NCBI GenBank assembly: GCA_025924835.1
Contig: JAICHO010000006.1
Location: 1-34,162 of the forward strand
DNA length: 34,162 nt
Source of the DNA: Candidatus Saccharimonadota bacterium
Lineage (GTDB): Bacteria > Patescibacteriota > Saccharimonadia > Saccharimonadales > JAICHO01
Reading direction: 5' to 3'
The position numbers and the translations under genes are program-made. Under the pieces are notes generated by a model. The model had not been told where the DNA came from. It ran no database searches and saw only the letters and a program-made list of their open reading frames with translations. This document shows, in pieces, positions 5,813-12,218 of the stretch (the first letter of the stretch is position 1; the number at the start of each line of letters is the position of its first letter).

Positions 5813-5846
5813 AACAAAAAGCCCCACAAGAGTGAGGCTTTTTGTT
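5813..5846. terminator. intrinsic terminator-like hairpin next to tRNA-Phe 3' fragment
   Basis: AACAAAAAGCCCCACaagaGTGAGGCTTTTTGTT. Confidence 0.7.
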
Positions 5847-5863
5847 GGTGGCTCCTCCCAGAC
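5845..5863 (-). repeat. tRNA-Phe 3'-end fragment (19 nt direct repeat of 6019-6037)
   Basis: TTGGTGGCTCCTCCCAGAC is identical at 5845-5863 and 6019-6037; the second copy is the 3' end of the intact tRNA-Phe. Confidence 0.85.
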
Positions 5864-5981
5864 AGCGGCCTTCGGCCTTTTCCGCACAGACATGCTCGTA
5901 ATAAATTCCGGCGCGTGACTGTGCTCCACCGAACTGGCGGCTACGCCGACTCCCAGTGCAAGTCACGGACAATGTCCGTCC

Positions 5982-6020
5982 AAGTAAAAGACCCTGAGCT
6001 TTAGCTAGGGTCTTTTACTT
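5982..6020. terminator. terminator hairpin abutting the CCA end of tRNA-Phe
   Basis: AAGTAAAAGACCCTgAGCTttAGCTAGGGTCTTTTACTT, 14-bp outer stem. Confidence 0.8.
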
Positions 6021-6095
6021 GGTGGCTCCTCCCAGACTCGAACTGGGGACACAAGGCTCTTCAGGCCTCTGCTCTACCAACTGAGCTAAAGAGCC
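6020..6095 (-). tRNA. tRNA-Phe (GAA)
   Basis: Reverse complement folds as GGCTCTT TA GCTC..GAGC A GAGGC CTGAAGA GCCTT GTGTC CCCAG TTCGAGT CTGGG AGGAGCC A CCA; anticodon GAA; CCA encoded. Confidence 0.95.
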
Positions 6096-6949: not shown

Positions 6950-7032
6950 GTCGTTTGTCTTAATCGATTTTCCAAACCAAGGAGTCGGCTTTGCCGGCTC
7001 GACTGTTTGGAAAATCGTAAGGAATAAACGAC
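6950..7032. other. long imperfect inverted repeat / structured intergenic element
   Basis: GTCGTTT(6950-6956)/AAACGAC(7026-7032) and CGATTTTCCAAAC(6965-6977)/GTTTGGAAAATCG(7005-7017), with an inner AGTCG/CGACT stem. Confidence 0.7.
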
Positions 7033-7089: not shown

Positions 7090-7165
7090 GCGGGTGTAGC
7101 TCAGTTGATAGAGCGCTTCCTTGCCAAGGAAGAGGCCACGAGTTTGAGTCTCGTCACCCGCACCA
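7090..7165 (+). tRNA. tRNA-Gly (GCC)
   Basis: GCGGGTG TA GCTC AGTTGATA GAGC G CTTCC TTGCCAA GGAAG AGGCC ACGAG TTTGAGT CTCGT CACCCGC A CCA; CCA encoded. Confidence 0.96.
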
Positions 7166-7201
7166 ATCAAAGGACCAGACCTTGTGTCTGGTTTTTTGAT
7201 T
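7165..7201. terminator. terminator hairpin abutting CCA of tRNA-Gly
   Basis: AATCAAAGGACCAGACcttgtGTCTGGTTTTTTGATT. Confidence 0.8.
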
Positions 7202-7283
7202 GGTCTGATATGTCTCAAACTCGTGGCCCTTCAAAATTAATCATTGCCACATTTTTGCCGCTACCAGCATGGCTGGTTGCGGC

Positions 7284-7303
7284 TTTGAGTCTCGTCACCC
7301 GCA
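7284..7303 (+). repeat. tRNA-Gly 3'-end fragment (20 nt direct repeat of 7143-7162)
   Basis: TTTGAGTCTCGTCACCCGCA is identical at 7143-7162 and 7284-7303; an inverted 15-nt T-arm copy (CTCAAACTCGTGGCC, 7214-7228) lies between them. Confidence 0.9.
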
Positions 7304-7320
7304 GCAATTGTATTTATGTC

Positions 7321-7350
7321 AAACTAGTGGTATGCTAATCACTAGTTTTT
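7321..7350 (+). terminator. terminator hairpin downstream of tRNA-Gly fragment
   Basis: AAACTAGTGgtatgctaatCACTAGTTTTTT. Confidence 0.75.
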
Positions 7351-7368: not shown

Positions 7369-8031
7369 ATGACACATGGAATAGTACGATCCTCTCATGG
7401 TGATGGAGGGACTCCTCCGGAATATGACGCTGAGATTCATAATTTTCAGGGACTGGAAGTATTTACACACAACACGCCGGAATCTATGGCGGCAGCACTA
7501 GGCAATGAGCAGCCAGATGGCAGGGTAATGACCTTTACTGCACCATCACTGTTTATGATGTCTCAAAGTATAGGGTTTATTGATCGTCAGAGGCGCATAC
7601 ACCATTTTTCTGCACAGGTATCCACAGATGAACAGGCTACAGCTGTCGAAGACGTTGTATGGGGCGCGATAGAGTCACATGGGCATACTGAAGCAGACGG
7701 CGTAATTAAGGTCGACGACCAAAATGGCCATGTATACCAAGTATACGCGACTGAGGAACCTGACGAGGAGGATCGTCTTAAAGCGCAAGTAGATGCATGG
7801 GCAGAGGATGTACGTGCCGCTTCAATGGTTGACCCCGTAGACAGCTTACTGCAGTATGTTAGCGAAGACGGCGTAACTATTGCGGACTATACACAAGGCA
7901 GGCACCACAGAGTAACTGTTTTGCGTGAAGCCGCGGGTTTTACGCTTACTACTGTCATGGAAGGTATGCCTTATATCCCTCTTCAAGACAATGCCCCTGT
8001 GGTCAGATGGGCTAAGGTCGTAACTTCATAG
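7369..8031 (+). CDS. hypothetical protein, 220 aa
   Basis: ORF with upstream AGGAG (ataggagttaatatg); no recognised domain. Confidence 0.75.
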   Translation: MTHGIVRSSHGDGGTPPEYDAEIHNFQGLEVFTHNTPESMAAALGNEQPDGRVMTFTAPSLFMMSQSIGFIDRQRRIHHFSAQVSTDEQATAVEDVVWGAIESHGHTEADGVIKVDDQNGHVYQVYATEEPDEEDRLKAQVDAWAEDVRAASMVDPVDSLLQYVSEDGVTIADYTQGRHHRVTVLREAAGFTLTTVMEGMPYIPLQDNAPVVRWAKVVTS

Positions 8032-8094
8032 GTTAATAAATCACGTAAAAAGGTTTCAACCTAATTTGTAAGTTTAGCAATAGCGTATTTGCAC

Positions 8095-8136
8095 ACCTCT
8101 GAGAATAGTTACACTTTAACTAACAATGCTGCACCA
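8095..8136. repeat. intergenic repeat copy A
   Basis: acctctgagaatagttacactttaactaacaatgctgcacca; same spacing as 12276-12317, 35/42 identities by eye. Confidence 0.55.
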
Positions 8137-8264
8137 AGATGACACCTAAAAAAGCTCCCTTGATCGGGGAAACGGTTTCAACTTATGTCCGGTGAGGTAG
8201 ACCTCACGAGACAAATAGTGCCGCTTTCTTGATTAGAATGATGGTTATAACCTAAGCTGTAGTT

Positions 8265-8555
8265 ATGCTAAGACGGCAAGAAATACGCACTCAGGTCCAG
8301 GACATTTTGGAGTATAACCCCTCTGGAGATCCTCATCAGAAACAAATGAAGCAGTTAGAGGGTCTCGGGATTGTAAGTATGCTTATGCTTGATGAGACTA
8401 TCGACAAGATGATTGCTATCAACAAAAAACTAGACTCAAGCAATAAGGCGCTTGCTGAGTCCAATCTAAAACTTCAGAAGCTAGCAATCGGGATATCGGT
8501 ATTTGCCATAGTAATATCCGTAATTCTTGGAGTTATCGCCATAAAGTCGAATTAG
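8265..8555 (+). CDS. small tail-anchored membrane protein, 96 aa
   Basis: Coiled-coil-like middle and a single C-terminal TM helix (LAIGISVFAIVISVILGVIAI). Confidence 0.6.
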   Translation: MLRRQEIRTQVQDILEYNPSGDPHQKQMKQLEGLGIVSMLMLDETIDKMIAINKKLDSSNKALAESNLKLQKLAIGISVFAIVISVILGVIAIKSN

Positions 8556-8696
8556 TTAAAATTTTAATGGCTATCATTCTTGTACCCCATCATACAGATA
8601 ACAAATTTCTAAGCCGAAACGTAGATAATTAGGTGTACCCAAAAATGGCACATTCGCAATTTATAATCTGTTAAAACGTGCCTCGAGCTCAACCGC

Positions 8697-9638
8697 TTAT
8701 TGTTTCTTGGCAAAAGCTTCCAACTGTACTTTCGAACTACCAATTAGATACTTATCAAAAAGCATTGAGGTCGTTGTATTCATTTCGCGTACCGCATCAG
8801 CAGTAACGGTTTTAAAGTCTTGATAATATTTCGTATTAGCAATTGAGATACAGATTTTATCCGTTAGAGGAAATACTGTTATCGCCTTCTCAAACTCATG
8901 ACCACCATAGATCATTCTTCGCCATATTCCATCTATGCGAGCCATAGCGTACACCGGTATATCAGAAGTTATAAAGCTTTCTCCATCTGGCGCATACTGA
9001 AAATTCCACCCCATTTTAAGCAAAGAATCCGCGAATCCATCGACCATTTCGAGAGAGGTTATGAGAATGTTATTCCTTGGTATGTCATACTCAACTTTTA
9101 TTTTTTTACCATCGATAATATTCTGTACATTTTCCCGTGTTAGCTCATGGTCAAATTCAGGGTGCTCGAGTTTAAATTCGGCCATTACCTTATCTCGATA
9201 ATCGTCGTCAAGTAACTTAGCCCACTCTTTATTAGCTGTCTCGCCCAATTCATCTCGTCCAATCTTCTCTATAAACTGCAAGGTGGTTGGTAGACGAAGG
9301 AGTTGGCTAGAAATACAATAAGCAAGGTCTGCAATATCGGGGTTGCTAAGCCATTTTCTTTCCTCGACTTTTTTAACCAAATAAGGAAATCTATTCTCAG
9401 GTCCACGAGCAAAGGACTCCTCGACAATAAGCTCCTTGTCACCGTTTGCATCTTCTGTTTGGTAAAGATACTCCGCGTGGCATATATCTTTTACAAGATG
9501 TTGTTCAATTTTGTTATTAGATTTATCGAAAGCATATACTTCTTGCTTCTTTTTTGATTTGTTTTTATTGAACGCAAAACCCCTTAGGTAAGTTTGTGGT
9601 ACGAAGTGATGATTCTTGGTAGGCATAGATGTAGACAA
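8697..9638 (-). CDS. DUF4238 domain-containing protein
   Basis: N-terminal KNHHFVPQTYLRGFAFN..KKQEVYAFDK and later FITSDIPV match DUF4238 hallmarks. Confidence 0.85.
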   Translation of the reverse strand: MSTSMPTKNHHFVPQTYLRGFAFNKNKSKKKQEVYAFDKSNNKIEQHLVKDICHAEYLYQTEDANGDKELIVEESFARGPENRFPYLVKKVEERKWLSNPDIADLAYCISSQLLRLPTTLQFIEKIGRDELGETANKEWAKLLDDDYRDKVMAEFKLEHPEFDHELTRENVQNIIDGKKIKVEYDIPRNNILITSLEMVDGFADSLLKMGWNFQYAPDGESFITSDIPVYAMARIDGIWRRMIYGGHEFEKAITVFPLTDKICISIANTKYYQDFKTVTADAVREMNTTTSMLFDKYLIGSSKVQLEAFAKKQ

Positions 9639-9721
9639 GTATATACCGATACGGCGGATATACTTCCCTTAAAAACGCCACCTTATTGCTATAGTTATTA
9701 TAAAGTGTTGGAGCCCTAACA

Positions 9722-10492
9722 ATGATTGATAATAATGCCCGTAAGATTACCTACCATTACACAGAGCAAAACTATCTCCCGCTCAAAGATTTGAGTATCA
9801 CCACATGCTATATATGTAGTTTGCCTTTAGATTCTAAAGTAAGTCCTGACCACCTAATACCAAATGGTCTGTTCATCACTGGCTCCCCTAAACGACCGGT
9901 TCTGCCTGTGCATGCGGCGTGTAATAACCAAAAATCTAAAGATGATAGGTGGTTCCTTAAAGAGCTGAGTATTATGTGCGGCCTCCAACCTGATGCATAT
10001 AAAACGTTTGAGGACTTTATAGACAAGGCACAAATAGAGCGAGAAAATATTGGCCTAATCGGGAAGTCACAGGAATTAAAGAATTATAAATTGGCAAAGA
10101 CTCTATTGGAGAAGAATACTTGGGGGCTAGACGTAACTCATTTAGGCGAAAATCTGAGCTTGTTACACCTTGACCCTGGTAGCGTGAACCGCGCTAATGA
10201 CTATGTGAAGGAAATGTGTAGAGGTCTTTACATAAGGAACGTTCCAAATGCATCTCCCCGGCAAGTAAAACTTATGGGATTTCAGTACGCAAAAGCAAAG
10301 GTTGACGGTACTTTTGACGAGCATATTAGAAACATTCAAACTCTATCTGATATGTCGTTTGAGAGGCGGTTTATGCAACGATGGGACGACCGTGTAGCAT
10401 ACTTAGGAAATTCAACGACTGACAACCCTTCTGCAGGATTTCTGTTTATAGAATTCTACGAGGCCCTTGGTTACCTGGCTGCGTTCAAGTAG
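9722..10492 (+). CDS. HNH-endonuclease-like protein
   Basis: CYICSLPL..SPDHLIPNGLF..LPVHAACNNQKSKDD: Cys pair, DH and H..CN arrangement of HNH nucleases. Confidence 0.65.
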   Translation: MIDNNARKITYHYTEQNYLPLKDLSITTCYICSLPLDSKVSPDHLIPNGLFITGSPKRPVLPVHAACNNQKSKDDRWFLKELSIMCGLQPDAYKTFEDFIDKAQIERENIGLIGKSQELKNYKLAKTLLEKNTWGLDVTHLGENLSLLHLDPGSVNRANDYVKEMCRGLYIRNVPNASPRQVKLMGFQYAKAKVDGTFDEHIRNIQTLSDMSFERRFMQRWDDRVAYLGNSTTDNPSAGFLFIEFYEALGYLAAFK

Positions 10493-10598
10493 CCTCACAA
10501 AAAGTGGGAGAGAGCTAGTCATGAATCCATGAGGTAAACTATTAGTAAGTATTGTTATTCGTGGTGGAGACGCAAGATACTTTCAGGAGTAAATAGAT

Positions 10599-12218
10599 AT
10601 GCCACATGCAAAAAAGAGAACAGTTAAGAATGATGTGATAGCTAAGGCTTTTGATGATGTGCCTGAAGTGGGTGCTAGGTGGAACAGATGGTATGACATA
10701 CCCTATAAAATCGCATGGTGGCAGATGAGAGGCTGGCGCAAAAAGGTTTTTCCAAGAACTTTTCGAGATGCATCAATTAAGTTGGTTAACATACTGTTAC
10801 AGTTCAACGAGTATGATCGCCAAAAAGCATGGGATAAGAAAGATAAACATAATAATATTAATATTCCTAAAGACGAGAGCGTTTCGATACCTTCTATTTT
10901 TATTGTTGAACTCTTCACTGCTAATGAGGCAAAAATTCTTGAAAAATCTATTAGGAAAAACGGTTGGGACAAATACAAGAGGGCGCTACATAAGAAAGAT
11001 ACAAATCTTGACCGCTTAGCCAAAGCTAGGACCGAACAAGGTGCATCCTGGTGGAGGCTTGCCGATGTCCGGAAAAAAGATAGTAAGTGGTTTATGCCTG
11101 ACGCAAAAGTTGGCCGCCTACCAGAAGGATTTGAGTCTGCGAGTCTCCGAGCAGTACAAATTGGATCAGGGTTAACAGCTGTAGTAGCCCGCTTTAGTTT
11201 AAGTAATTCTTACAATAAACATGTTGATGATGTTTGGCGCAGCCAGCACGAACCTAAGATCCAGTACATATCAGGCAGTTTTAGAGTGTTGAATAGGCTA
11301 TTCTCAGCCTACGAAACTACTCAGAAAACTCGCGAGCAGCTGCATAACCAGGCTAGAGACTGGATGTCAGAATTTTGCCCTGGATTCTTTTCTATGCACA
11401 AGGAACAGCACGTTTCTTTAGATATTATTCTTACCGAGCAGCTTGACCCTACGAGTCGAAGCAAAAAATTTTCAGAGCATGAGGCGGCAGACGCATATAG
11501 AGCATTAGGAGTAGATATATCAAGTTTCCGACGCATCACTTCTAAACATCTCCCCGGGCTATTACTTCAACAAGCCGATAGGCTGTCTGAGCCTAACATC
11601 AACACCAGACGAACCTGGAGTCTAATTGGCAAAAGGTCAAAGCTTGCCACGCTTACGGATAACTTTAAATATTACTCTGATGAGGAGTCAGGTGTGTCTA
11701 ATATGTCCGAAGATTCGATGGGCTATACATTGACGTTGTTAGGAGTACAAGAAATGCTCGCTTCGATAGAAAAACGCTTTTCTAGCCTTAGAGACCAAGC
11801 AAATCAGAACCACAAAAAGTTTAAGGTAAGAAATTTACGCAAGCTAAATAGGATAATTATGGACTCGAGCTTTACGCTGACTAGTATTAAACAAGATATC
11901 ACTACCTACCTTTACGAAGAGCGGTGGTATGACGGAGCAGAACTGATCGTTACAATATCACCTCCTTTTAAAGATAGGCTTAAGGATACCTACAAAGAGT
12001 CTGAAAGCTTCCACAAGCTCGTAATTAAGCAGCTAAACGATAGACATAATCGACTCTTAGCTTTAGATAAAGACATTAGGGATATATTGTCTACTGTCGC
12101 AAACCTTGGCTCATCTGCAAGCAGCATTGTATTGGGTAGATGGGCATTAGGTGTTTCAGCTCTTTCATTGTTAGCGGCTGTCGCAGCATTGGTCGTATCA
12201 ATGCACTTGCATAAATGA
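10599..12218 (+). CDS. hypothetical protein, 539 aa, with C-terminal TM helix
   Basis: Long ORF with SD (caggagtaaatagatatg); C-terminal ALGVSALSLLAAVAALVVSM. Confidence 0.8.
   Translation: MPHAKKRTVKNDVIAKAFDDVPEVGARWNRWYDIPYKIAWWQMRGWRKKVFPRTFRDASIKLVNILLQFNEYDRQKAWDKKDKHNNINIPKDESVSIPSIFIVELFTANEAKILEKSIRKNGWDKYKRALHKKDTNLDRLAKARTEQGASWWRLADVRKKDSKWFMPDAKVGRLPEGFESASLRAVQIGSGLTAVVARFSLSNSYNKHVDDVWRSQHEPKIQYISGSFRVLNRLFSAYETTQKTREQLHNQARDWMSEFCPGFFSMHKEQHVSLDIILTEQLDPTSRSKKFSEHEAADAYRALGVDISSFRRITSKHLPGLLLQQADRLSEPNINTRRTWSLIGKRSKLATLTDNFKYYSDEESGVSNMSEDSMGYTLTLLGVQEMLASIEKRFSSLRDQANQNHKKFKVRNLRKLNRIIMDSSFTLTSIKQDITTYLYEERWYDGAELIVTISPPFKDRLKDTYKESESFHKLVIKQLNDRHNRLLALDKDIRDILSTVANLGSSASSIVLGRWALGVSALSLLAAVAALVVSMHLHK

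Follow-up and report, generated by a model that had tools for sequence, protein, structure and literature searches.

Gene-less mini-elements with tRNA T-arm copies behind tRNA genes of Saccharimonadia as probable T-arm cassettes

The tRNA-Gly locus

We analysed a DNA stretch of 34,162 nt (the window), which is contig 6 of a 1.0-Mb genome and, in the named collection, has Candidatus Saccharibacteria as its nearest relatives by sequence, and focus on a small element directly downstream of its tRNA-Gly gene. The host tRNA (7090-7165, forward strand; ARAGORN; Rfam RF00005, 71 bits) has the anticodon GCC and an encoded CCA tail. That is, the gene first annotated as tRNA-Gly-CCA is indeed a tRNA-Gly, while CCA denotes its tail and not its anticodon. 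The architecture originally predicted (terminator, inverted copy of 15 nt, hairpin, direct copy of 20 nt, second terminator) was found in full. All of these features lie on the forward strand except for the inverted copy.

The terminator hairpin 3' of the tRNA (7162-7204) is on the element side of the junction and consists of the inverted repeat I3 (arms 7162-7180/7186-7204, 19 nt each, 89% complementary) and a T-run. It is followed by an inverted copy (INV) of tRNA-Gly 45-59, i.e., of the 5' strand of the T-arm plus the T-loop, which is located on the reverse strand at 7214-7228 and is complementary to 7134-7148 in 15/15 positions. When one gap is allowed, INV reaches 7233 (through GAAG), which corresponds to tRNA position ~40. 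In the minimum free energy folds for both RNA and DNA, INV (7223-7227) pairs with a short direct T-arm copy GCCAC (7246-7250) to form the stem P2 with an A-rich loop inside. Both folds also show the hairpin P3 (GCCGC.ACCAGC/GCTGGT.GCGGC, 7257-7283) directly 5' of the junction, which has another sequence in relatives but keeps its pairing.

The direct copy of tRNA-Gly 54-73 (7284-7303) is exact (20/20) and starts with the first base of the T-loop (tRNA positions 54-60); extended to 7284-7308, 24/25 positions are identical. We take it to be the displaced original 3' end of the tRNA, with the CCA decayed to GCA. Behind it, a distal terminator-like hairpin AAACTAGTG/CACTAGTTT with a T-run (~7321-7350) can, from its sequence, be read as the original terminator of tRNA-Gly. 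The 99-nt segment 7205-7303 outperforms 200/200 shuffled sequences in folding (z = -4.3 for RNA, -4.0 for DNA).

Related elements in the same genome

A second host tRNA of the window, tRNA-Phe(GAA) at 6020-6095 on the reverse strand, repeats this pattern as had been proposed. Reading along the reverse strand, the tRNA is followed by its terminator on the element side (5980-6022; inverted repeat I4, 16-nt arms, 100%), a structured core with a CACGCGC..GAGCATG stem-loop (5854-5936), an 18-nt direct copy of tRNA-Phe 59-76 including CCA (5846-5863), and a second terminator (5813-5846). The core was identified with R1, a covariance model of what we call type A below, at 82.6 bits (E 6.7e-18), where the copy itself is among the sequences used for model building. 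A third case is found behind an initiator-like tRNA-Met. The respective offsets of the own 3'-end copies (at least 15 nt) are +119 for Gly-GCC, +157 for Phe-GAA and +152 for Met-CAT.

To assess chance occurrence, we counted how many tRNAs have, at a distance of 40-260 nt on their downstream side, a repeat of 12 nt or more from their own 3' end, with all detected tRNAs being checked for the related genomes G007 and G064. Such copies are present for 3/38 tRNAs of the window genome, 10/41 of G007 and 10/36 of G064. The same test on the upstream side gave no tRNA in any of the three genomes, and using the downstream region of another tRNA gave 0, 2 and 0, respectively. The 3'-end copies behind tRNAs are thus not due to chance, i.e., the enrichment proposed as a check for the original prediction is real.

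A common plan with several core types

With the window stretch as query, other families of the order gave matches not only to the tRNAs but also to the Phe and Gly elements, and elements homologous to that of the window's tRNA-Phe stand behind tRNA-Phe in other families. A scan of the tRNA-Phe loci of many Saccharibacteria revealed one plan behind Phe, Gly, Val and Leu tRNAs. Overall, many families have it, at tRNAs for most of the amino acids. It comprises, in this order, a terminator, INV (covering about tRNA 40-61 and positioned at +38 to +60), a direct strand pairing to INV, a structured core, and the host tRNA's own 3' end (about +115 to +230, often including CCA). The elements have a size of ~140-200 bases, contain no open reading frame (ORF), and have their junction in or near the T-loop: in 31/41 cases the direct copy begins 16-24 nt from the 3' end, i.e., in or beside the T-loop. 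Species differences in tRNA-Gly are mirrored by both the direct copy and the INV of the local element.

Within this plan we distinguish several core types. Type A (stem-loop CACGCnCAG..GAGCATG) is found behind many tRNAs, type B has the core GTGAGA..CGCAAGGA, type C is the Met element of the window genome and type D the window's Gly element. Type D elements are joined at tRNA 53/54 and many of type A near 60/61, i.e., at the two edges of the 7-nt T-loop. Variant elements downstream of tRNA-Phe (L076, L087, L131) have their junction at tRNA 48/49, i.e., in the variable loop and not the T-loop, and their INV is shifted correspondingly (tRNA 40-50); for L076, the direct repeat extends through the terminator (~64 bp).

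The family is widespread in Saccharibacteria and apparently undescribed. Rfam searches of the window and its relatives reported no family within the elements, only tRNAs plus an unrelated sub-threshold match to transfer-messenger RNA in L040, and viral, phage and plasmid collections gave no match. We found no paper on integron-like or tRNA-anchored mini-elements of Saccharibacteria in the open-licence literature, subscription papers and preprints being outside this search.

Folding and covariation

For type A, 11/13 predicted base pairs show changes on both sides. This is also reflected in the covariation statistics, i.e., 37 cells with both sides changed are observed compared to 11 +/- 3 in shuffles, and the signal is gone in slid controls. 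For Gly-type elements (type D), INV forms a stem equivalent to P2 in 8/8 folded elements, and an outer stem between the inverted T-loop and the T-loop of the direct copy is part of the best fold in 4/8, including that of the window. Type A does not have this outer stem. The Gly-type structures were taken from single folds; a MAFFT consensus of the Gly elements was set aside because the alignment misplaced the P2 strand.

Distribution and apparent spread within genomes

R1 matches are present in 41/100 genomes of the order, with up to 23 sites in one genome, as well as in two genomes from other orders of the class Saccharimonadia. Among ~260 other Patescibacteria genomes, no match was found outside the class. 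With regard to tRNA linkage, 85 of the 103 matches examined have a same-strand tRNA within 700 nt on their upstream side (mostly at 63-110 nt), while a tRNA on the other (3') side is observed for 11/103.

The nearest core by sequence is from the same genome for 29/99 cores (300 shuffles: mean 8, max 16), a count that includes some tandem neighbours and is based on matches that are not an unbiased sample; for only 4/99 (expected 5) it comes from another genome but the same tRNA. Similar cores behind different tRNAs are found, e.g., for Ser-GGA/Ser-GCT in G023 (98%) and Pro-TGG/Phe in G085 (86%). Elements also form tandem units with 3' copies at every boundary, and the number of units differs between the congeneric genomes G023 and G061 at Ser-GGA, Arg-CCT and Gln-CTG. 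This pattern suggests that elements spread within genomes and have their tRNA-derived parts renewed, and not that they are inherited at one fixed tRNA.

The tRNA-Gln-CTG locus of G023 (L318, G023:C4:343300-354000) shows three tandem units and two more past ORF-bearing stretches of ~4 and 2.6 kb. The ORFs of this array encode 609, 198 and 589 aa; the stretches are possibly gene cassettes or later rearrangements.

Serine-recombinase islands

Many R1 matches far from any tRNA nevertheless terminate with the 3' end of a tRNA. In the traced cases (Glu, Leu, Gly, Pro), the mini-element is separated from its tRNA by ~5-18 kb of island DNA. For instance, a large serine recombinase gene is found directly 3' of tRNA-Glu-CTC and tRNA-Leu-TAG in G064, with the mini-element 13 and 18 kb further on, and the mini-elements of tRNA-Gly and tRNA-Pro in G023 are likewise displaced by ~15 and 5 kb. 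Overall, 2/2 large serine recombinase genes in G000 and 5/6 in G064 are just downstream of tRNAs. Genes of this kind directly behind tRNAs are G000:C11:10959-11405, G000:C20:5539-5988 and those of L319, L336, L338 and L340. The islands join at the CCA end of the tRNA and are therefore later arrivals than the mini-elements. Since they sit between the tRNA and the older mini-element, we rejected large serine recombinases as the direct cause of the latter.

These observations also bear on the idea that the elements are att-site relics, i.e., that a larger island at the T-arm lost its middle part and left attL, a fragment and attR. While tRNA 3' ends are classical integration sites and the position of the serine recombinase genes fits, the traced islands use another junction, and, unlike random debris, the fragment keeps its core, size and folding between families and between different tRNAs. 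Furthermore, no large island with a T-loop junction was found, the occurrence of many same-core copies in complete genomes that have no larger version was seen in part, and the 8-kb tRNA-Phe loci contain no larger autonomous version bounded by T-loop copies. We thus consider relics improbable.

Interpretation

The elements are, on balance, probably integrated copies of non-autonomous, ORF-less mini-elements of Saccharimonadia that insert in tRNA T-arms and that we refer to as T-arm cassettes. What the sequences themselves show is the anatomy and the boundaries of the elements, their recurrence and association with tRNAs, the tandem arrays, the match to the host tRNA, the similarity of cores inside a genome, the T-loop as usual junction, the restored tRNA and the displaced 3' end. 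That the cassettes are mobile is quite likely, and they would join by site-specific recombination at the T-arm. The original prediction, which saw here a minimal mobile element or else a complex att site, comes close with regard to recurrence, tandems, variable copy number and apparent within-genome spread, but neither a transposase nor a dedicated recombinase was found to go with it.

Several points weigh against our interpretation. Movement was not directly seen, i.e., we found neither an excised circle nor an empty site at strain level (same species). Nearly all genomes of the order, including that of the window, encode only one tyrosine recombinase, an Xer-like core gene. Furthermore, INV and its partner strand change along with the T-stem, which varies from one host tRNA to the next; classical integration leaves this unexplained. 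Also, the same-genome core similarity has to be read with the restrictions given above.

Concerning the mechanism, a cassette would join the tRNA gene in or near the T-loop and bring a matching 3' half with CCA and terminator, such that the gene is kept complete. The tRNA's former 3' half and its terminator are thereby displaced ~115-230 bp downstream, where the direct copy is seen. The distal end of each cassette has a foldable site, made of INV, the partner strand that rebuilds the left T-arm duplex with INV, and the hairpin(s) at the junction. In integrons, the attC site is folded and only one of its strands is recombined (PMC2727003). We tentatively prefer an analogous folded-strand mechanism, because the inverted T-arm copy, paired with the direct one, looks like a folded attC; that is, a folded single strand might recombine with the tRNA T-arm as attC does with attI, by means of a recombinase acting in trans. 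T-loop edges such as 53/54 and 60/61 are where a tyrosine recombinase would cut, and the single conserved Xer-type enzyme is conceivable here, if an unlikely candidate.

Taken further, tRNA genes could be docking sites of an integron-like cassette system, in which cassettes folded as single strands have their site rewritten for each target tRNA, are inserted in tandem at the T-arm by a trans-acting recombinase and in places maybe carry genes (as in the tRNA-Gln array of G023). We regard this extended picture as rather unlikely.

Alternative explanations

The strong covarying folds could also indicate a structured RNA under selection that regulates the upstream tRNA, being antisense to its T-arm and ending in a tRNA-like 3' end. 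INV matches the host tRNA in antisense and tracks its variants. Nevertheless, we give this reading little probability: the elements are sporadic at any given tRNA, occur as tandem repeats, and lie beyond the tRNA terminator without matching an Rfam family, and their cores are shared within genomes but not between genomes at the same tRNA.

Replication accidents, i.e., template switching and slippage at the T-arm palindrome followed by homogenisation with the tRNA, would as well produce such copies. Template switching is known to create, maintain and repair hairpins (PMC8794818), which would account for the agreement between INV and the tRNA. If 7214-7289 of the window's Gly element is inverted between CTCAAA and TTTGAG, an unbroken copy of tRNA 40-73 results, which speaks for such an event. 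It is left unexplained why cores of types A and B are homologous between different tRNAs and between families, such that accidents are quite improbable as the sole origin. Template switching may still act on the tRNA-derived parts of the cassettes and may keep INV matched to the tRNA.

A bridge RNA would carry its guides as an inverted left half and a direct right half. The inverted left and direct right target halves inside our elements match this layout, but non-autonomous IS110-type elements guided by bridge RNA are highly improbable, given that the IS110 (DEDD) transposase is encoded in 2/100 genomes, none of them element-rich, and that the guide-like INV is base-paired within a stem instead of exposed in an open guide loop. 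As mobilisers, IS110, reverse transcriptase and Y1 transposase were all rejected, being absent from most or all element-rich carriers; e.g., no reverse transcriptase was found in G000, G006, G007, G023, G061, G064 and G085.

Comparison to known systems

The elements share with integron cassettes the tandem arrangement behind a fixed site and, going by the predicted folds, a distal site in the form of an imperfect palindrome whose structure appears more conserved than its sequence, as in attC. The type D junction at G^TT is a further similarity. In contrast to integrons, a general integrase model identified no intI, the counterpart of attI is the tRNA itself, the cassettes are mostly ORF-less, and their site, which is not independent of the host tRNA, is a copy of it. 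At the junction, we observe T-loop variants such as GTTAGAG, GTTTGAG and GTTCGAN but not the R-box consensus GTTRRRY. Because tests for both the integrase and the R-box consensus were negative, we do not class the elements as integrons.

Integrative elements that target tRNAs by a tyrosine integrase, including integrative and conjugative elements and prophages, likewise have their crossover in or near the T-loop, restore the tRNA 3' end while the displaced one is kept distally, and are bounded by a direct repeat of that end. They differ from our elements, which have only 140-200 bp, contain an extra inverted T-arm copy and occupy many tRNAs per genome. No integrase gene was found on an element or relative; there is no room for it, and no larger integrase-bearing copy was found.

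Repetitive extragenic palindromes (REP), bacterial interspersed mosaic elements and miniature inverted-repeat transposable elements are similarly small, palindromic, multi-copy, gene-less and intergenic. Here, in contrast, the elements are tied to tRNA 3' ends and have host-specific flanks. The link to Y1 transposases that was brought up initially is not supported: the window genome has none, and a Y1 (RAYT-like) transposase, as expected for REP systems, is encoded in only 2/7 carriers examined. The family is not covered by the element types compared and is best described as tRNA-targeting mini-elements.

Further observations in the window

Upstream of tRNA-Gly, a hairpin leader AAACCAAGGAGTCGGC..GGCTCGACTGTTT (6950-7032) represents a second conserved tRNA-linked structure, for which no Rfam match was found. 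Its motif AACCAAGGAGTC is located 112-119 nt before the start of both the window's tRNA-Gly and tRNA-Met of the same genome (L001), and with the same spacing before tRNA-Asp in G032 (L331) and tRNA-Leu-GAG in L120. The leader in G032 is 86% identical to that of the window over 83 nt.

The region 8000-12000 has a G+C content of 0.39-0.41 vs. ~0.46 elsewhere. It encodes a DUF4238 protein as well as ORFs for which Pfam gave no match, and is possibly an acquired region.

Implications

The probable T-arm cassettes constitute a gene-less repeat family that is common at tRNA 3' ends in one bacterial class and that has parts copying whichever tRNA hosts it. Annotation is affected as well, because the displaced 3' ends mimic tRNA fragments. 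The concrete question raised is which enzyme, if any, recombines a folded T-arm; the family would illustrate how rearrangement takes place around essential tRNA genes in epibionts whose genomes are tiny.
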